A program made the position numbers and the translations under genes. Under the pieces are notes generated by a model, which had not been told where the DNA came from, made no database searches, and saw only the letters and a list, made by a program, of their open reading frames with translations. Positions 2,656 to 16,580 of a stretch of DNA of 16,992 nucleotides are shown one piece after another. The DNA lies in NCBI GenBank assembly GCA_001797815.1, contig MGQK01000073.1:969-17960 (forward strand), given 5' to 3'. The stretch is from Deltaproteobacteria bacterium RBG_13_61_14 (lineage in GTDB: Bacteria > RBG-13-61-14). The stretch's first letter is position 1; each line of letters begins with the position of its first letter.

Positions 2656-3261
2656 TCAGACCTGATGGGGCGGGCCGGCTTTTCGCAAACCTTGGCCCAT
2701 GGCTTCCAGCGCGGCCAGGATATCCAGGCGCGGAGCGATCCGCTTCTTGATGAATCCCATCAAATAGCCGGCTCCGTAAGCCAGGGCGCTTATGATCTGG
2801 TTCATGATTCCCTCCACGGGTTGATCGGCATGCAAGGGCGGATATTCGCCGGCCTCGATCAAGTCGGCGCGGCCGATGGATTCGAGGTAACTGGGATAAA
2901 TGTAGGGCACCACGTAAAAGAGCGGCACGGCTTTCATCAACAGGGCGATGGAGCCGCGGGCCAGGAGCTTCTTCTCGTTGATGCCTTTGGCCACCGGCAA
3001 GAGGCCGAGCAGGACGCGCTGGAAATCCTCGGACCGGCCGGCCATGCCCACGGTCCCCGCCGCGGTCGAGTCCGTGCGGATGACCAGTGGGGTGCAGGTG
3101 AGGTCTATCTCCGCGGCCAGGGGAGGATCTTTCAACTCCAGCTTGAGCAGCAGCGGCGTGCCTTCGGTGATCTCCCGGATGATCGGATCCAGCCGGGGCA
3201 GCCGGCGCAGGAACCCGCCGATGACCAGGTCCAGCTCTTGGCTATTCGCCAACCCGGCCAT
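2656..3261 (-). CDS. SCP2-like lipid-binding domain protein, last gene of the dehydratase operon
   Basis: 201 residues from the ATG at 3261. That start has GGAGCGGAG just upstream and overlaps the end of the preceding gene by 20 bases; an in-frame upstream start would lie wholly inside that gene. Residues about 36-106 have the alternating pattern of sterol-carrier-protein-2 folds: LLLKLELKDPP, then a strand-rich stretch, then AGRSEDFQRVLLGLLP and a GxI-type ending (ARGSIALL). The C-terminal 90 residues are helical and not recognised. SCP2 domains bind long-chain acyl-CoAs or sterols in a hydrophobic cavity. Position in the operon suggests it presents or holds a hydrophobic substrate for the dehydratase-type enzyme. 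The fold call comes from pattern reading only and the function is inference. Confidence 0.5.
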   Translation of the reverse strand: MAGLANSQELDLVIGGFLRRLPRLDPIIREITEGTPLLLKLELKDPPLAAEIDLTCTPLVIRTDSTAAGTVGMAGRSEDFQRVLLGLLPVAKGINEKKLLARGSIALLMKAVPLFYVVPYIYPSYLESIGRADLIEAGEYPPLHADQPVEGIMNQIISALAYGAGYLMGFIKKRIAPRLDILAALEAMGQGLRKAGPPHQV

Positions 3262-4576
3262 GCTCCGCTCCCGGTTTCGCCCGCCCTTTGCGGGGCAGGA
3301 CCATTTCTTCCACAAAGCGCTTCAACTCGAACTGGAGTTCCTTGTAGGTCAAAATGCGCGGGTCAAACATGTCGAACTCGAACACCAGGAGCGGGATGTC
3401 CGCCTTCTTGCACGCCTCCTTGAACAACCCGATCCCGCCCCAGGAATGCTTGCAGGCAATGTGCCCGGCCAGGATCCCGCAGTCGGCCTGGAAGCGCTCG
3501 TGCAAAACCATAAAGTCTTCGATGTAGCGTTTCATGGTTCCCCGGAACTGACGCGACATCGGGTGGCAGTTCACCATCCGCCGCGCCAGGCCGAAAAGCA
3601 TGGCTTCTTCGCTGGAGGTGTCAATCCAGGCTTCGGACGCATAATAGCCGAAGATGTCCATGGGGATGACCAGACCCAGCTCGGCTTCCATCCAATCGTA
3701 GATCTGGATGTCCCACCAGACCGGGTCCTGATACCAGATCGCCCGCGCCTTTTCCTGGAAATAACGCACGCCCGTTTCCACCTTGCGCCGGGCGTCCTCG
3801 GCCAAGGCCCGCGCGATCTCCAGCCCCCAGCGTGAGCCGCTGAACCCGATCATCAGCACCATGGTGAACGCGGCCACCTTGGAGGGCTGCATGGTCGGAG
3901 CGCGGCTTCTCCATTCCATCCAGTCCCAGAGGTATTGGCTGGTGCGGTTGGTGGTCTCGCAGACTTTCCGGAGCCGATCCCATTCCAGGCGCCGGCCGGT
4001 ATGCTTTTCCAGAAAGGGGATCAGCTCCCGCAACTGGCCGGCCACTTGCCGGAAGGTGCGCTCGTCGTCGTAGGGCGGCACGTCAATCACAAAGAGCGGC
4101 ACGCGGTTGCGCTGCTCGGCCATGGCCTGGACCACCGCCACCTGCGAGTCGCACGGAGTGTTGATGCCCACCAGGCAGGCCGGCTCCGGGTATAGGCCCC
4201 GGAGCAGCGCCCCGATCCCGGCCTTGTCCGCGGAGCAACAATCCGCGGAATAGCCCTTGGACTCGGCCAGGTCAATGAACGCTTCGGTGTCGGCCTGGTC
4301 GCCCACGATGCTGGAGAGCGCGGCCAGCTCCGACACGCAAAACGGGACGACGCCCAGCGCCCAGATCAGCTCGGGATTAAAACCCAGGTTATACCAGACC
4401 GCCGGCTGGCCGGCGTCGCTCTTCGAGAACTTGTCCAGCAGGAAACCCCGCAAGTTGCTGAGCATCCCGCTCAAGCCCCGGCCCTCCGGGTCCGCGGCAA
4501 ACAGTGAATCCATCCGGGTCAGGGTGGCCCACACGGTCTCCCATTCGCGCGCCCGCTCTCGACCCAGAATCGGCAT
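3242..4576 (-). CDS. 2-hydroxyacyl-CoA dehydratase / benzoyl-CoA reductase family subunit (HgdB-like)
   Basis: 444 residues from the ATG at 4576, which shares one base with the stop of the upstream gene (TGATG); GGAGG lies about ten bases before it. A TTG one codon earlier is possible but less likely. Family hallmarks include GFNPELIWALGVVPFC (Cys80), SADCCSADKAGIGALL (Cys113/114) and GILAGHIACKHSWGGIGL (Cys375), then LVFEFDMFDPRI near the C-terminus. Three conserved cysteines of this type hold the [4Fe-4S] cluster that receives an electron from the ATP-driven activator. The enzyme acts in the cytoplasm on a CoA thioester. It pairs with the product of the gene directly upstream, so the two should form a heterodimer. 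The substrate cannot be assigned from sequence. Confidence 0.88.
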   Translation of the reverse strand: MPILGRERAREWETVWATLTRMDSLFAADPEGRGLSGMLSNLRGFLLDKFSKSDAGQPAVWYNLGFNPELIWALGVVPFCVSELAALSSIVGDQADTEAFIDLAESKGYSADCCSADKAGIGALLRGLYPEPACLVGINTPCDSQVAVVQAMAEQRNRVPLFVIDVPPYDDERTFRQVAGQLRELIPFLEKHTGRRLEWDRLRKVCETTNRTSQYLWDWMEWRSRAPTMQPSKVAAFTMVLMIGFSGSRWGLEIARALAEDARRKVETGVRYFQEKARAIWYQDPVWWDIQIYDWMEAELGLVIPMDIFGYYASEAWIDTSSEEAMLFGLARRMVNCHPMSRQFRGTMKRYIEDFMVLHERFQADCGILAGHIACKHSWGGIGLFKEACKKADIPLLVFEFDMFDPRILTYKELQFELKRFVEEMVLPRKGRAKPGAEHGRVGE

Positions 4577-5721
4577 CAATCATTCCTCCGGGTTTCCAGC
4601 CTCTCGATAAAGGCCTGCACCCGCGTCTTGACCTGACCGGTGGACACCGTCCCGTATTCGCGCTCCAGGACCAGCATGGGCAGGGGATGGGTCTCAAAGC
4701 GATGGCGCAGGTTGTGCACCTCGTTCGCCCAGATCTGGCAGAACTTGATGCGGGTGAAGATGATGCCGTCCGCCCTGCTGGCCTGATACAAGTCGAGCAG
4801 CGCCTGCCACCGTTGAGGAAACTCGTCCATCATCCGGGCGCAGGGGATCTGGTGGAGGTAAGCGCGGGCCAGGGAGGAAAGCGGATCTTTCCCGATCTCG
4901 ACCACCCGGCCCAGGCCGCGGCTGCCGAAGCAAAGCAAGTCGCCGACCACCTGGGCCCCCTGGCTCTCGATGGTGCGAACGAACCTCGGGTCATCCAGCT
5001 CGCCGCCGATCAGCAGCACCCGGCCGCGAATGCCGGCGATGGGATCCAGGGTTTCGGCCTCGGCGATCAAGGCATCCGCCAACTCGACAAACCGCTCCGG
5101 CGGCAGAGACCGCGCGGCCACCAGGGCGGTGAAGACATCGGCGCCCGCAAGCCTGGGCGCGGGACCCTGGCGCAGATCATCGAGCTTTTGCACCCGCTCC
5201 CGCACCCGGTTCATCCGGGTAATGGCCTGATTCAGCGCTTCCCCGCCGACCCGAACCTGGAAGTGGTCTTCCAGCGACGCCTTCAGCCGCGAAAGTTCCT
5301 CGAGATACCAGGGGAAAAGGCCGGCGCGCAGGCTATGGGGCACCGAAATATAGCCGTGATAAGCCAGGTCGCTCTTCGCGACCAGGACATCGTTGCCGCG
5401 GCGGATGTGGTCGCAGGTATTGACCGAGATCTGGCCCGCGAGAAAATCATAAGCGCCGTCGAGCACGGCCGCGGCAATGTGCCGGACCAAGGAGCAGGTC
5501 AGATGGGAAAGGTAAGCATCGCCGCTGGAAGAATCTTCCTGCCCAAGGCCGCGCAGCCGGACCGGAGACAACCCCGCGGCCAGCAGCAGCTCCACCGGCA
5601 CGTAAGAGCAAAAGTAGCCCACCGCCGGCCGGCCGGCGCGCAGTGCATCCTCCGGCTTCGCGGCCTCCACCGCGGCGCGAAGCGCACGCAGCGCGTCCGA
5701 GCTTTCAGCGGACTTTCCCAA
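4576..5721 (-). CDS. 2-hydroxyacyl-CoA dehydratase / benzoyl-CoA reductase family subunit (BcrC/HgdA-like)
   Basis: 381 residues. It begins at a TTG (5721), because AAGGAG (5733-5728) sits six bases upstream and no ATG fits. Conserved features are VGYFCSYVPVELLLAAGLSPVRL at the start of the fold (Cys38), HLTCSLVR (Cys76), ISVNTCDHIRR (Cys103), RIKFCQIWANEV (Cys328), and the diagnostic C-terminal LEREYGT..TGQVKTRVQAFIE. Cys76, Cys103 and Cys328 are the likely cluster ligands. It overlaps the preceding CdhC-like gene by 17 bases and the next subunit gene by one base, so translation is coupled. It and the HgdB-like protein form the probable substrate-reducing or dehydrating component. Dehydratase and ring reductase cannot be told apart by eye. 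Confidence 0.88.
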   Translation of the reverse strand: MGKSAESSDALRALRAAVEAAKPEDALRAGRPAVGYFCSYVPVELLLAAGLSPVRLRGLGQEDSSSGDAYLSHLTCSLVRHIAAAVLDGAYDFLAGQISVNTCDHIRRGNDVLVAKSDLAYHGYISVPHSLRAGLFPWYLEELSRLKASLEDHFQVRVGGEALNQAITRMNRVRERVQKLDDLRQGPAPRLAGADVFTALVAARSLPPERFVELADALIAEAETLDPIAGIRGRVLLIGGELDDPRFVRTIESQGAQVVGDLLCFGSRGLGRVVEIGKDPLSSLARAYLHQIPCARMMDEFPQRWQALLDLYQASRADGIIFTRIKFCQIWANEVHNLRHRFETHPLPMLVLEREYGTVSTGQVKTRVQAFIERLETRRND

Positions 5722-6502
5722 GGGGGTCTCCTTGACCTGACCGGGTCCGGCGGCGGATGACCGTCACCTCCCGGATCTGATCGCACACCGGCTTTTCCTC
5801 GCAGGACTCGCAGTTCAATTCCTCGCACTCATAGTCGCCCGCTCCGCCCAGCGAGATCTTCCGGTGCCGGCCGGAGTAGATCCCGGCCTCCGCGGCCAGG
5901 GCGGAAAATTTTTCTACCTCCGCGCGGTCCGAGGTGATGAAAATGCTCTCCACCGCTAGAATCCCGCGGACTTCCCGCCGAAAAGCCTCGGCCAAGGCCG
6001 TGCCCAGGAGCGCAAAGTCCAAACCCGCGGCAATCGCCTGATGACTACCCCGCAGCCACAGCCGGCCCGGCACCACGCGCGCCATCACGCCCGGCAGCCG
6101 GCGAGTCAAAAACTGGATGGCTTCCAGACGAAAAAGATCCAGTCCGGGGGCCCGGGCGATCCCCAGCAGGATGATCTGGGCGTAATCGCGCTCTGCTCCG
6201 AGGCAGGCGGCCAGGTCCGGCCCGAGCAGGGTGACCCGGCCGTCTCGAATCATTTCCGGCTCCGCCGTCCAGATCACCGCATGCGCGGAAGCGCGAGCGG
6301 GCGGACCCAACTCGACCGCGGTATCCGCCGCCAGCAAAATTTTGTTCGCCGGCTCCGATCCCGCGTCGAAGCTCCGGCGATATTCCAGGAGCCGCAAAGG
6401 ATCGCCGGCGCTTTCGGTCCCGCATCGCGCTTCGGCCAAAAGCTTTCGGGCCCGGGTCACCAGGGCCTGCATGTCCGGTTCTGCGGTTTCAGGGCTGGTC
6501 AT
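5705..6502 (-). CDS. Short acetyl-CoA synthase beta (CdhC/AcsB)-like protein in a dehydratase operon
   Basis: 265 residues from the ATG at 6502, which overlaps the activator stop by four bases (ATGA). I recognise the pattern of the acetyl-CoA synthase/CdhC catalytic region: VTLLGPDLAA, then ILLGIARAPG (for GIIVEVAGR-type segments), then LWLRGSHQAIAAGLDFALLG (for RISKEAF..GL.LKHLG), then VESIFITSDRAEVEK. A cysteine cluster follows at 226, 231, 234 and 240 (YECEELNCESC...VC). In acetyl-CoA synthase the equivalent region carries the A-cluster [4Fe-4S] ligands. The protein is far shorter than AcsB and has no CGC nickel site, so acetyl-CoA synthesis is unlikely. It probably binds an Fe-S cluster and either passes electrons or assists the dehydratase. 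Homology is by pattern memory; the role is inference. Confidence 0.55.
   Translation of the reverse strand: MTSPETAEPDMQALVTRARKLLAEARCGTESAGDPLRLLEYRRSFDAGSEPANKILLAADTAVELGPPARASAHAVIWTAEPEMIRDGRVTLLGPDLAACLGAERDYAQIILLGIARAPGLDLFRLEAIQFLTRRLPGVMARVVPGRLWLRGSHQAIAAGLDFALLGTALAEAFRREVRGILAVESIFITSDRAEVEKFSALAAEAGIYSGRHRKISLGGAGDYECEELNCESCEEKPVCDQIREVTVIRRRTRSGQGDPLGKVR
5728..5733 (-). promoter_or_regulatory. Ribosome-binding site deciding a TTG start
   Basis: AAGGAG on the minus strand (5733-5728), six bases before the TTG at 5721. It lies inside the end of the CdhC-like gene and is what fixes the unusual start of the BcrC/HgdA-like subunit. Confidence 0.6.
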
Positions 6503-7296
6503 GGTTGGCTTGATTTTTTGGCCTGGTCCTGGGCGATGAGGGCGGCGCCCAGGGCGCCGATGATCTGCGGGTCCACCCCTTCCGGAAAGCGAGCCAGGTT
6601 CATCCCCAGTTTTTTCGCGACCGCGTCCACCACGCCCGCGTTCTTGGCCACTCCCCCGGTAACGACAATTTCCGGCTCCACCCCTACCCTTTTGGCCAAA
6701 GCCACCACCCGGCTGGCCAGCGACTGGTGCAAACCCTTGACAATGCCCGGAAGCGGCGCGCCCTCGTTGACCAGGTTGATCACCTCGGACTCGGCAAACA
6801 CCGAGCACATGTTGCCGATCATGCAGGACTCGCCCGGCTCAAAGTGCAAACGGGACAGATCGGCGAGGGGGACGTCCAGGGTCCGCACCATCATCTCCAG
6901 GAACCGGCCGGTGCCGGCGGCGCACTTGTCATTCATGGCAAAGTCGAGCAGGTTGCCGTCCCGGTCTATGCAGATGGCCTTGGTGTCCTGGCCGCCGATA
7001 TCGAGGACGGTGCGGACCGAGGGCAGGTAATAATGCGCGCCCCGGCCGTGACAGCTCAGCTCGGAGATATTGGTATGGGCAAATGAGACTTGGGCCCGGC
7101 CGTAGCCGGTGCCGACCACGAACCGGACCCGGTCGGGCGAGATTCCGGCCTGGGATAGCGCTTGCTCGTAGATGGCCGCCGCGGTTTTGGCCGGGTTGGT
7201 GGAACTCGGGCCGATCACCGATCCCAGGATCTGCGAATTTTGGAGGATGACCGCTTTGCTAGCGGTCGAGCCGATGTCCACTCCCGCGGTGATCAT
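6499..7296 (-). CDS. 2-hydroxyacyl-CoA dehydratase activator ATPase (HgdC/BadG family)
   Basis: 265 residues, the usual length of the single-domain activator. The ASKHA ATPase fold is clear: phosphate-1 motif AGVDIGSTASKAVIL (4-18), DIGGQDTKAI (99-108), and the adenosine motif VVTGGVAKNAGVV (211-223). NDKCAAGTGRFLE carries Cys125 and GNMCSVFAESEVI carries Cys164. These correspond to the two cysteines that in the homodimer bind one bridging [4Fe-4S] cluster. It hydrolyses ATP to deliver a strongly reducing electron to the partner dehydratase or reductase. It is followed by the CdhC-like gene with an ATGA overlap and preceded by the flavoprotein gene with a 54-base gap. Only one activator is encoded, as in dehydratases, whereas class I benzoyl-CoA reductase has two ATPase subunits. 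Confidence 0.93.
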   Translation of the reverse strand: MITAGVDIGSTASKAVILQNSQILGSVIGPSSTNPAKTAAAIYEQALSQAGISPDRVRFVVGTGYGRAQVSFAHTNISELSCHGRGAHYYLPSVRTVLDIGGQDTKAICIDRDGNLLDFAMNDKCAAGTGRFLEMMVRTLDVPLADLSRLHFEPGESCMIGNMCSVFAESEVINLVNEGAPLPGIVKGLHQSLASRVVALAKRVGVEPEIVVTGGVAKNAGVVDAVAKKLGMNLARFPEGVDPQIIGALGAALIAQDQAKKSSQP

Positions 7297-7350
7297 GCCC
7301 CTGCTTCAATCCAAGGTTGGCTCAAGTCCGACGGCGCTTGGTGGAACCGC

Positions 7351-8646
7351 TTAATTCCAGTTGGCCAGGATGCGGCTGGCCGCGTATTTTCCGAGACAAA
7401 GCGTCAGCAGGACCACCGGGGTGCCCAGCTCGTCCGGGATCACGCTGGCGTCGGCCACGTAGCAACGCTTGATCTGGGTCTCCAGGTTCTTGTCCACCAC
7501 CTTGCCGATCGGCGCCGACCCTCCGGGATGGGCGGCCTTGACCGGAGAGGTCCAGAGCGAGGACTTGGTCGCCCCGGCTTTAAGCAGGATCTCCCGGGCG
7601 TGGCCGTCGCCGGACTCCAGCCGCTTCTTGACCTCGGGCTCCAGCGCTTTCTTCAAGTTGCCGTTGGCGTCAATGGTCCCGGAAATCGGGTCTTTGACCT
7701 TGGTCATGATCCCCAGGATGTGGGCCACGTTGGCAACCTGGTCCAGCCGGCCCTTCATCCCCAGCGAGGCCAATTGCAGCATCCAGGGCTCGGCCAGGTC
7801 GGTCATGACATAACCTTCTTTTTCCCAATACTGCCAGGTGCCGGCGGTCATGGGCACATCGTAAATCGAACCCTTCTCCTGGCCGGGGCGCATCCCATAA
7901 GTAAAGATCAGCGGGTCCGTGAAAAAACCTTGCCCGGCCTTTTCGACACCGGAGCGTTTCAGGATCACCGGGGTGCCCAGGCCGCCCGCGGCCAGGACCA
8001 CCCGGCCGGCCCGCAGCGTGAACGGCCCCTGGGGCCCCATTCCCTTAACGCCCGCGGCTTTCCCGTTCTCCTGGATGACCTCTTCCACTTTCACCCGGGT
8101 GAGAAGTTCCATGCCCATTTGCTGCGCCTGCTTGATAAACTCCCGGCTCGTCCACTTCGCGCCCCGCTTGCACCCGAGCATGCACTCCCCGCAATCCCGC
8201 ACGCACTTCTCCGGGTTTATGAACTTGGGCAGGAGCTGCCAGTCCATTCCCAGGGCCTGGGCCGCCTCCAGCATCCGGCGCGCGCCATCGCCCACGAGCT
8301 TTTCCGGCAGCGGCCGGATCCCCAGCTCTTCCTCGAACTCGTCCGCATAGGGCGCCAGGTCAATTCCGGTCTGTTCCTTGATGAAGGCCGCCGGCCGGGT
8401 GGCGGTGCCGCAGTAAATCAGGGAAGACCCGCCGGTGGTAATCCCCCGGATCATCATGGCATGACCCAGGGGAAGCGAATTTTTCAGGTCCATCTTGGGC
8501 AAGACCGCGAAATGCGAACCCACCCAATCGCTGTCCGTGCCCCATTCCAGCATGACCACCTTTTTCCCGGCCTTGACCAGTTCACGCGCCGCCGAGGCGC
8601 CGCCCGGGCCCGAACCCACCACGATCACCTCATATTCCTTGTTCAT
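7351..8646 (-). CDS. GMC-like FAD oxidoreductase with a four-cysteine Fe-S motif
   Basis: 431 residues from the ATG at 8646, preceded by GGGAGGA at good spacing. The N-terminal Rossmann motif VVGSGPGGASAARELVKAGKKVVMLE (9-34) binds FAD. RGITTGGSSLIYCG (67-80) resembles the second FAD-contact motif of the glucose-methanol-choline family. Cysteines 148, 152, 155 and 159 (CVRDCGECMLGC) look like a ferredoxin-type cluster ligand set followed by RGAKWTS. The C-terminal block HPGGSAPIG (His373) and YVADASVIPDELGTPVVLLTLCLGKYAA matches the GMC C-terminal domain. It should oxidise an alcohol or related CH group and pass electrons onward through the cluster. As first gene of the operon, it may feed electrons to, or make the substrate for, the dehydratase-type enzyme. 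Substrate unknown. Confidence 0.8.
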   Translation of the reverse strand: MNKEYEVIVVGSGPGGASAARELVKAGKKVVMLEWGTDSDWVGSHFAVLPKMDLKNSLPLGHAMMIRGITTGGSSLIYCGTATRPAAFIKEQTGIDLAPYADEFEEELGIRPLPEKLVGDGARRMLEAAQALGMDWQLLPKFINPEKCVRDCGECMLGCKRGAKWTSREFIKQAQQMGMELLTRVKVEEVIQENGKAAGVKGMGPQGPFTLRAGRVVLAAGGLGTPVILKRSGVEKAGQGFFTDPLIFTYGMRPGQEKGSIYDVPMTAGTWQYWEKEGYVMTDLAEPWMLQLASLGMKGRLDQVANVAHILGIMTKVKDPISGTIDANGNLKKALEPEVKKRLESGDGHAREILLKAGATKSSLWTSPVKAAHPGGSAPIGKVVDKNLETQIKRCYVADASVIPDELGTPVVLLTLCLGKYAASRILANWN

Positions 8647-8779: not shown

Positions 8780-8925
8780 TTGCCACCCCCATTTTTTTGA
8801 CCGCACCGTATATTTTCGGCCTTTGTAGGGGCGCAATTTATTGCGCCCAGTTTCTGCAAGGGCGCGATAAATCGCGCCCCTACCCCGCGCCGCGAGAAGT
8901 TCCCGGAAAAATGGGAGTGGGCAAG
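8780..8925. repeat. MITE-like repeat, family A copy 3
   Basis: About 146 bp, bounded by TTGCCACCCCCATTTTTT on the left and, in complement, CTTGCCCACTCCCATTTTT on the right. The internal modules are 8825-8848 and 8860-8883, in the same order as in the copy at 293-431; the shared TATTTTCGG(C/T)C flank is also present. It sits between the thiamine enzyme gene and the dehydratase operon, so it may separate their transcripts. Confidence 0.8.
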
Positions 8926-8960: not shown

Positions 8961-10682
8961 TTATTGCGATCCTCCTCCCACCAGCTTGCTTAGCGCCGAG
9001 ATGTCCGTTTTTCGGCCGATGGCCGCCAGAGCCATGCTGCCCGGGCTGATCACCTCACGGTCAATATAGACATTGATCACTGCCGGTTTCTCGGCGGCAA
9101 AGGCGCGCATAAGCGCCGGCCGGATCTCCTGGGGCTCGTGCACCTCTTCCCCATAACCCCCCAGCGTCTCGCAGATCTTGTGGTAGGGCACGTCGCCCAA
9201 GTCCACCCCGATACACCGCTCTTTTCCGTAGCGCAGGGTCTGGCTGTGCATGACCATGCCCCAGGCCTGGTCATTGAAAACCACCACCACGATCGGGAGT
9301 TTGAGGCTGATCGCGGTCTGGAGTTCCATCAGGTTGAAGCCCAGGGAACCGTCGCCCACCGTCGCCATCACCCGCTTGTTGGGAAAAGTAAGCTTCGCGG
9401 CCACCGCGTAAGGCAGGCCCACGCCCAGGCAGCCGAACAGGCCCGATTCCAGCGTGTGCCCCGGCGCGTTAAACCGCCGGACCATGCCCATCCAGATCTG
9501 GGCATCGCCGCCGTCCAGCGCCAGGATATCCTCCGGTCCCAGGAACTGGTCAATCTCGTGCGCCAATCGCGCCGGATGGATGGGCACCGCCGTGGACTCG
9601 GCCTGGCTGCGAAAGGCCTTCTTGCCCATGGCATCGGCCTTGGTCAAGTCTTCGCGCCAGGCGGAAAACCGCTCGGGGCTGATGAACTCTCTTCCGGCCT
9701 GGGCCAGTTGCTCGAGCACCCGGCCCGCGTCTCCGATGATGCCCACGTCGGCCGGCCGGTTGCGGCTGATTTCTCCCGGATCCAGGTTGACCGCGATCAG
9801 CTTGGCCGCGGGCGAAAAGATCCGGCCATAGGCTAAAAAGAGACTGATGCGGGTGCCGACCAAGAGGACCAGGTCGGCGCGGGTGAGCGCGCTCAGGGCC
9901 GCGCCGGGCCGGAGCGGGAGTGACGGCCCGAAGCACAGGGCATGGTCGTCGGAGAGACAGCCCTTGCCCAGCGAGGAGGTAAAGACCGGGACGCCGCTGG
10001 CCTCCGCGAATTTCTGCAGCGCATCAACCCTGCCGGCAAACCATACCCCGCTGCCGGCGATCAGCACCGGCCGCTGGGCTTGAGCAAGCAGGCGCACGGC
10101 TTCGGCCACCTTGTCCGGGTCCCCGGCCGGCCGCGAGAGCGCCACCGGACGCGCCAAAGCCACGGCCGAGTCCTTGACCGTGGCGCCCAAAACATCGGCC
10201 GGGATTTCCAGGTAAACCGGCCCGGGCGCGCCGCTTCTGGCCTGGTGAAAGGCCTGGTGCAGGGTCTCGCCGATCCGCGCCGTGTCCTCTTCCCTCCGGG
10301 CCCACTTGGTCAACGGCTCGACCACCTTGAGCTGGTCAAGCTCCTGAAGATCGAGCCGGCCCACCATGTCCGTGGCCACACAGCCGGAGATCACCACCAG
10401 CGGGATCCCGGCCAATTTGGCATTGGCTATCGCGGTGAGCGCGTTGGTAAACCCGGGACCGGCCGTGACCACGGCCACCCCAGGCTTGCGGGTGAGCCGG
10501 GCCGAGGCCTCGGCCATGAACACCGCGGCCTGCTCGTGCCGGGTGGAGACGAGTTGGAGGTCCGAGTCCAGGAGCGCATCGTAGATCGAGGCGATGTGCC
10601 CGCCGCAGATGGCGAAGACCATTTCCACGCCCTCGCGCTCAAGGGCCTGGACCACGATTTTACCGCCGGTTAAATCTGCCAT
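8961..10682 (-). CDS. Thiamine-diphosphate-dependent enzyme (acetolactate synthase / 2-hydroxyacyl-CoA lyase-like)
   Basis: 573 residues with the three-domain layout of the ThDP decarboxylase/lyase superfamily. The N-terminal pyrimidine-binding domain has STRHEQAAVFMAEASARLT with the catalytic glutamate at 50. The central domain runs from about 190 to 330. The C-terminal domain holds the ThDP motif GDGSLGFNLMELQTA (443-457), closing with NDQAWG (Asn470). The segment RLDLQELDQLKVVEPLTKWA (109-128) recalls 2-hydroxyacyl-CoA lyases and benzaldehyde lyase as well as acetolactate synthase. No ilvN regulatory subunit or other branched-chain gene is adjacent, so biosynthetic acetolactate synthase is less likely. 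GGGAG seven bases upstream supports the ATG at 10682. It lies just upstream of the dehydratase operon on the same strand. The exact reaction is unresolved. Confidence 0.85.
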   Translation of the reverse strand: MADLTGGKIVVQALEREGVEMVFAICGGHIASIYDALLDSDLQLVSTRHEQAAVFMAEASARLTRKPGVAVVTAGPGFTNALTAIANAKLAGIPLVVISGCVATDMVGRLDLQELDQLKVVEPLTKWARREEDTARIGETLHQAFHQARSGAPGPVYLEIPADVLGATVKDSAVALARPVALSRPAGDPDKVAEAVRLLAQAQRPVLIAGSGVWFAGRVDALQKFAEASGVPVFTSSLGKGCLSDDHALCFGPSLPLRPGAALSALTRADLVLLVGTRISLFLAYGRIFSPAAKLIAVNLDPGEISRNRPADVGIIGDAGRVLEQLAQAGREFISPERFSAWREDLTKADAMGKKAFRSQAESTAVPIHPARLAHEIDQFLGPEDILALDGGDAQIWMGMVRRFNAPGHTLESGLFGCLGVGLPYAVAAKLTFPNKRVMATVGDGSLGFNLMELQTAISLKLPIVVVVFNDQAWGMVMHSQTLRYGKERCIGVDLGDVPYHKICETLGGYGEEVHEPQEIRPALMRAFAAEKPAVINVYIDREVISPGSMALAAIGRKTDISALSKLVGGGSQ

Positions 10683-16442: not shown

Positions 16443-16498
16443 GTAGGGGCGTGATTCATCACGCCCTTTTCAGAGGGCGCAATGAATTGCGCCCCTAC
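16443..16498. repeat. Family A paired palindromes without the outer inverted repeats
   Basis: Two facing modules: 16443-16466 (GTAGGGGCGTGAT, ATCACGCCC) and 16475-16498 (GGGCGCAAT, ATTGCGCCCCTAC). The internal arrangement matches the copies at 293, 2473 and 8780, but the CTTGCCCACCCCC-type ends are missing. It lies in the gap 16395-16765 after the dGTPase gene. Confidence 0.78.
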
Positions 16499-16580
16499 AA
16501 ATTTTCCAAGATTGAATAGTATGTTCTACCCGAAGCTATGAAACCCGATCTAGACCTTCGGCCGCTTTAACCGGGGATTA

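Follow-up and report, generated by a model that had tools for sequence, protein, structure and literature searches.

Six genes on the minus strand at positions 2656-8646 of the window, the 16,992-nucleotide stretch of Deltaproteobacteria bacterium RBG_13_61_14 analysed here, form a tightly packed operon which, on balance, probably encodes an ATP-driven, low-potential coenzyme A (CoA) thioester reductase from a new clade of the benzoyl-CoA reductase/2-hydroxyacyl-CoA dehydratase superfamily. The module is a real, shared machine which recurs in unrelated bacteria and archaea. All six genes were confirmed where an earlier reading of the bare sequence (the initial annotation) had put them:

7351..8646, minus strand: GMC-type flavin adenine dinucleotide oxidoreductase, 431 residues, with a CxxxCxxCxxxC motif (CVRDCGECMLGC); Pfam GMC_oxred_N
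6499..7296, minus strand: activator ATPase of the HgdC/BzdQ/BcrAD type, 265 residues, with cluster cysteines in KCAAGTG and CSVFAESEV; TIGR00241
5705..6502, minus strand: CdhC-like protein, 265 residues, predicted acetyl-CoA synthase (ACS) middle domain plus CxxCx5C; Pfam CdhC and AlphaFold2 model
4576..5721, minus strand: HgdN, HGD-D subunit, 381 residues, TTG start, with the six [8Fe-9S] cysteine positions of BzdN; Pfam HGD-D
3242..4576, minus strand: HgdC, HGD-D subunit, 444 residues from the ATG at 4576, with three active-site [4Fe-4S] cysteines; Pfam HGD-D
2656..3261, minus strand: predicted SCP2-fold protein, 201 residues from the ATG at 3261; AlphaFold2 model, Pfam SCP2 score below cut-off

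The ATPase and CdhC-like genes meet at ATGA and the HgdN and HgdC genes at TGATG, with overlaps of 17 bases between CdhC-like and HgdN (given the TTG start of the latter) and 20 bases between HgdC and SCP2 (given the ATG at 3261), all matching the values first reported. A 54-base gap separates the GMC gene from the ATPase gene. There is no CoA transferase in the operon. The initial annotation had also described the locus as free of a ferredoxin and a second ATPase and this was correct, as the ferredoxin motif CxxCxxCxxxC occurs in no frame of the whole window, which holds a single BadF/BcrA-type ATPase.

Both HGD-D subunits are members of the superfamily (Pfam HGD-D, 248.5 bits for HgdN and 198.8 bits for HgdC; PF06050 cut-off 28.4), with NCBIfam scores far below every equivalog cut-off. 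This includes the class I benzoyl-CoA reductase models (BzdN 93 bits against a cut-off of 453.8, BcrC 98.8 against 421.2, BzdO 47.7 against 448.6, BcrB 22.6 against 486.6) and the dehydratase models (HadB 52.5 against 750, HadC 94.3 against 700). The highest-scoring model for HgdN was that of DCCP (NF040772, 178.3 bits, cut-off 350) and its best PDB match was BzdN (8s02_B, E 1.9e-26), with HgdC matching BzdO (8s02_A) at E 1.1e-10. The CdhC-associated proteins formed one clade apart from BzdN, HadC, MbdN and DCCP in the HgdN tree (support 100/96), and one clade apart from BzdO and HadB in the HgdC tree (support 100/99). Rows within the clade which had not been grouped (L121, L122, L123 and L126; L and G numbers are our handles for loci and genomes) were recognised as module loci after further flanking sequence was read. 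The trees used PDB reference sequences from Bzd, Had, DCCP and, in the HgdN tree only, Mbd, with no rows for HgdAB, FldBC, Thauera BcrBC or MbdO, and their rows came from alignments covering most, not all, of each chain. Relative to these references, we conclude from sequence comparison that HgdN and HgdC probably represent a separate clade of the superfamily, and a subunit phylogeny, as the initial annotation had proposed, places both outside the testable characterised clades (BzdNO, HadBC, MbdN and DCCP).

In the class I reductase, BzdN holds an [8Fe-9S] cluster via six cysteines, and BzdO carries a [4Fe-4S] cluster on Cys95, Cys128 and Cys380 together with the catalytic residues Glu65 and His131 (PMC11971306). 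The six positions in BzdN (36, 73, 100, 263, 293 and 327) were picked by conservation in BzdN and DCCP. All six are cysteine in every module HgdN, as they are in BzdN and DCCP, whereas two are replaced in the dehydratase subunit HadC (Pro and Ala) and three are missing in MbdN. The first description of the two subunits as HgdA/HgdB-like therefore stands in that both are HGD-D proteins, but undersells HgdN with its six-cysteine double-cubane site of BzdN and DCCP. It had also left the choice between reduction and dehydration open; because HgdN has the six double-cubane cysteines, two of which are not found in HadC, reduction is favoured and a reductase is the likelier reading.

HgdC keeps the equivalents of Cys95, Cys128, Cys380 and Glu65 of BzdO, but not the complete catalytic pair, as His131 is replaced. 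Histidine occurs at this position in 0/41 clade members compared with 7/19 sequences outside the clade; it is Gln throughout the subclade of the window (11/11) and Val in HadB. The clade has a signature of its own (C-D; GHxxCK), with Asp after the Cys128 equivalent in 40/41 members and a His at position -3 relative to the third cysteine in 31/41, compared with 0/19 outside, and these residues may have a catalytic role. Two variants of HgdC were also seen. The third cluster cysteine is changed to His (PHK) in five proteins which all fall in one supported subclade (L093, L110, L112, L114 and L115), and two tandem HgdC-type subunits per operon occur in L031 and L019 (one Jordarchaeia locus and one Chloroflexota locus).

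The CdhC-like protein scores 28.3 bits with Pfam CdhC (cut-off 24), and its family profile finds the ACS chains of the PDB at E 1.7e-15. The AlphaFold2 model (pLDDT 83.6) best matches ACS 3git (Z 18.4 over model residues 34-236), with the next unrelated fold at Z 3.1; according to this model, the protein is an ACS middle domain. Of the three cysteines in the CxxCx5C motif near the protein end, C231 and C234 never vary among 34 homologues and C240 hardly does; the motif coincides in position with the start of the A-cluster [4Fe-4S] motif of ACS. The Ni-binding C-terminal domain of ACS is not in the protein, which ends soon after CxxCx5C and whose matches cover the middle domain. The invariant Trp149 aligns with the WVRIS motif of ACS, although the alignment itself says nothing on CoA binding. 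As the window genome also has a full-length ACS on another contig, the CdhC-like protein is not a broken ACS.

Scanning 84,980 species genomes with the CdhC-like profile gave at least 27 loci, a lower bound since the scan relied on one short peptide pattern. Stand-alone CdhC-like genes were present in six of a sample of 192 genomes (G000, the window genome, and G001, G002, G026, G037 and G078), where other CdhC matches were mostly full-length ACS. Neighbours were counted within 6 kb of the CdhC-like gene in 34 loci, with HGD-D genes in 29, an ATPase in 26 (two ATPases in 12), a CooC-like gene in 19, an SCP2-like gene in 13 and an acyl-CoA dehydrogenase, found beside Chloroflexota operons, in five. 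SCP2 and CooC are nearly exclusive, occurring together only in L017. Four of the loci without HGD-D are close to a contig end (L017, L027, L032 and L034) and the fifth is L011. The module was found in Chloroflexota, Myxococcota, Thermodesulfobacteriota, Spirochaetota, Jordarchaeia and others. Module-type genomes have only ~5-16 HGD-D genes each, and chance neighbours were rejected given the HGD-D linkage in so many loci and phyla.

Conservation of gene order had been suggested as a check, and its outcome is mixed: the set is conserved across phyla, but the exact six-gene order occurs only at the window locus. A relative from the same taxonomic order (L009) retains ATPase-CdhC-HgdN-HgdC-SCP2, and a second relative (L010), whose contig begins within the CdhC-like gene, retains CdhC-HgdN-HgdC-SCP2; all six window components are present in reshuffled form in two further lineages (L018 and L021). 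The unusual partner set pointed out in the initial annotation is likewise real and conserved, but the lone ATPase and the missing acyl-CoA dehydrogenase belong to this copy and not to the family, as seen from the neighbour counts and from a two-ATPase copy in the same genome. This second copy (L013, contig C21 of G000) possesses two ATPases, a CdhC-like and a CooC-like gene. Neither a characterised clade with the same neighbours nor a lack of conservation elsewhere was found. The set was said to be undescribed, with which we agree in so far as the open-licence literature gave no CdhC-type partner of such reductases, a negative limited to those papers. The proteins listed for the "Magic" benzene-activation cluster (PMC13101534) are different ones and it was rejected as a match, and a PLSDB search for plasmid-borne copies was without match.

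A close paralogue, HgdN-HgdC-SCP2-GMC, is also encoded in the window genome (L075 15439-20000 and L118 1-2092, contig C40 of G000), with no ATPase or CdhC-like gene adjoining. It lies ~13 kb from a BzdNO/HadBC-like pair with genes for a CoA ligase, a ferredoxin-like open reading frame and a 2-oxoacid:ferredoxin oxidoreductase. In L011 (7665-10150), CdhC-like and CooC-like genes with no HGD-D gene nearby are followed by a PP-loop protein, whose sequence we take to resemble the sulfur transferase LarE. Up to 13 BzdN-related matches each were detected in G073, G071, G061 and G067 (Dehalococcoidia-type and others), a large unexplored expansion of the superfamily.

The remaining partners were assigned by profile and fold. 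The activator ATPase matches Pfam BcrAD_BadFG and scores 248.9 bits with TIGR00241 (cut-off 125.4), and both cluster cysteines align with those of PDB 4eht (E 1.2e-68); by profile and cysteines, it is assigned to the acyl-CoA dehydratase activase family TIGR00241. The GMC protein is a GMC oxidoreductase (GMC_oxred_N 82.6 bits, cut-off 23) whose CxxxCxxCxxxC is kept in the module relatives (10 aligned sequences), the first gap differing by one residue in L017 and L021. Strong GMC matches occur in eight operons, and the gene is also present in L017, L018, L021, L022, L029, L039 and L040. The SCP2 protein had been named SCP2-like, and this assignment holds: the Pfam score of 17.1 bits is under the gathering cut-off of 21.3, but the AlphaFold2 model (pLDDT 79.9) matches SCP2 structures (Foldseek E 2.6e-6, Z 12.4), predicting an SCP2 fold for the 2656..3261 protein. 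It is this predicted fold alone which suggests a hydrophobic ligand, and hence the hydrophobic substrate put forward in the initial annotation.

Gene content, conserved linkage, folds, cluster cysteines and phylogeny are direct observations, from which we infer the electron path, the cluster types, the reaction direction and the roles of the CdhC-like, SCP2 and GMC proteins as follows. The activator ATPase, as a dimer with one bridging [4Fe-4S] cluster, would be reduced and, upon ATP hydrolysis, deliver single electrons to HgdN, where a double-cubane [8Fe-9S] cluster would store and relay them. The site-open [4Fe-4S] cluster of HgdC would be the place of CoA-thioester reduction; there, the conserved Glu would serve as one acid/base and the clade's own Asp and His residues would stand in for His131 of BzdO. 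The CdhC-like protein, with its three-cysteine iron-sulfur (Fe-S) motif, may be a subunit of the complex, most likely the electron entry replacing ferredoxin, and in related loci it may be matured by the CooC-like ATPase, a protein with a CxC motif that is best matched in the PDB by CooC (3kje). The SCP2-fold protein would bind or present the hydrophobic substrate, and the Fe-S GMC flavoprotein would perform a coupled oxidoreduction. The acyl-CoA dehydrogenase beside five related operons fits a CoA-thioester substrate and acyl-CoA metabolism.

Some observations speak against a CoA-thioester reductase of this kind. The six-cysteine site is also present in DCCP, for which we know of no action on CoA esters, and is absent from the class I reductase subunit MbdN, hence a CoA-thioester reductase can do without these cysteines, and their presence does not establish one. 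No clade member has His131, and the reaction may therefore follow a chemistry other than Birch-type reduction. The operons of L035 and L036 are without an ATPase gene within 6 kb, and the electron role given to the CdhC-like protein is a guess, the least certain step of the scheme. More tentatively, the module could be a new enzyme class, namely an ATP-driven reductase which uses an ACS relic (in many lineages together with a CooC-like metal-inserting ATPase) as a working subunit and acts on a CoA thioester with active-site chemistry unlike that of benzoyl-CoA reductases or hydroxyacyl-CoA dehydratases.

The same parts could be read as an atypical radical 2-hydroxyacyl-CoA dehydratase, where one electron is injected per many turnovers and HgdNC removes water from a hydrophobic 2-hydroxyacyl-CoA. 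Superfamily and activator are shared, the single ATPase is homologous to the dehydratase activator, and HadB is likewise without His131 (Val). We consider this unlikely in view of the six-cysteine site of HgdN, with Pro and Ala at two ligand positions of HadC, the low HadB and HadC scores, the trees placing HadBC outside the clade, the operon without a CoA transferase and the two ATPases in 12/34 related loci, as in class I reductases. Conversion of benzoyl-CoA, or a substituted benzoyl-CoA, by a class I reductase of the ordinary anaerobic aromatic pathway would agree with BzdN as best PDB match of HgdN and with the double-cubane cysteines and Glu65 in common with BzdNO, but is very unlikely, with scores far below the Bcr and Bzd cut-offs, a position outside the BzdNO clade and loss of His131. 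Furthermore, the ring hydrolase Oah/BamA is above cut-off in only 3/28 module genomes (best 99.3 bits in the window genome, cut-off 464); because none exceeds the cut-off in the other 25, the module is probably not part of canonical benzoyl-CoA degradation.

A role in the ATP-driven reductive activation or maturation of another metalloenzyme such as carbon monoxide dehydrogenase (CODH)/ACS, with the ACS-like domain as a docking mimic and no CoA turnover, is quite unlikely. Corrinoids and MCR are known to be activated at the expense of ATP (PMC6739815; PMC12176620), a precedent which favours this explanation alongside the ACS middle domain, the CooC-like neighbour with CxC and its match to 3kje, and the presence of ACS in 21/28 module genomes. 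However, acyl-CoA chemistry is suggested by the neighbouring acyl-CoA dehydrogenase and SCP2 genes, and the ACS C-terminal domain was not found in 7/28 module genomes, which are drafts of uncertain completeness; these include the genomes of L026, L028, L030 and L038 (Myxococcota-type) and L029 (Spirochaetota). An activator dedicated to ACS is weakened by these seven genomes, and the module is probably not an accessory of ACS. A DCCP-like small-molecule reductase, in which the double-cubane cluster does the work and no CoA ester takes part, is highly improbable: DCCP is the top-scoring model for HgdN (178 of 350 bits), but this is under the equivalog cut-off, the tree puts DCCP outside the clade, and the module has two different subunits with the open three-cysteine cluster site of BzdO and HadB in HgdC.

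Just upstream of the operon, on the same strand, is a putative thiamine pyrophosphate enzyme of the acetolactate synthase/2-hydroxyacyl-CoA lyase type (8961-10682), below all equivalog cut-offs shown. It was left out of the operon given a 314-base gap with a repeat and as the gene was not seen in related loci. Palindromic repeats (GGGCGCRATNNATYGCGCCC), often as two copies ~12 bases apart, occur in the window at 2499-2576, 8810-8887, 314-436 and 16468-16501, and lie on either side of the operon in inverted orientation. In the genome, the pattern was detected at 119 places, with 0 in a reversed control, which on sequence grounds identifies the repeats as a REP/BIME-like family; with so many copies, the flanking repeats were rejected as the boundary of a mobile element.

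Anaerobic microbes rely on ATP-driven enzymes of this kind for their most demanding reductions of fatty or aromatic acid thioesters. The redox potentials reached in this superfamily are among the lowest in biology, and to our knowledge only a few of its reactions have been characterised. The module represents a coherent and widespread clade, with an active-site signature and partner proteins peculiar to it; annotation by homology would call its members benzoyl-CoA reductase or 2-hydroxyglutaryl-CoA dehydratase. Should the module be a new reductase, claims of aromatic degradation by subsurface bacteria and archaea based on such annotations need review, and reuse of an ACS domain with a CooC-like partner would, if true, be a second life of Wood-Ljungdahl parts.

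Of the known systems, the bzd-type class I benzoyl-CoA reductase (BzdNOPQ, Aromatoleum) resembles the module in its two HGD-D subunits and BadF/BcrA-type ATPase, in the six [8Fe-9S] cysteines of the N-type subunit and in the three active-site cysteines and Glu65 of the other. The module differs in scoring far below the equivalog cut-offs, lying outside the clade and lacking His131; the window has one ATPase, no ferredoxin, and CdhC-like, SCP2 and Fe-S GMC partners, and a ring hydrolase above cut-off was not found in most module genomes. The 2-hydroxyisocaproyl-CoA dehydratase (HadBC with HadI) has the same fold, an activator ATPase (4eht, E 1.2e-68) and the three-cysteine cluster in the HadB-type subunit, but HadC is without two double-cubane cysteines, the clade is another and the module operon is without a CoA transferase. 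DCCP shares the six-cysteine site and gives HgdN its best profile score, whereas the module is below the DCCP cut-off, in another clade and with other partners, and its second subunit has an open [4Fe-4S] site. The ACS beta subunit (CdhC/AcsB) is similar in its middle-domain fold (Z 18.4) and in the cysteines at the start of the A-cluster motif, but the CdhC-like protein stands alone at ~250-270 residues, without the N-terminal domain of bacterial ACS or the Ni-binding C-terminal domain. Finally, the CooC-like neighbour shares the P-loop MinD-like fold and CxC motif of the CooC nickel-insertion ATPases, but its gene, present in 19/34 related loci and not in the window, is linked to the CdhC-like gene and not to CODH/ACS.

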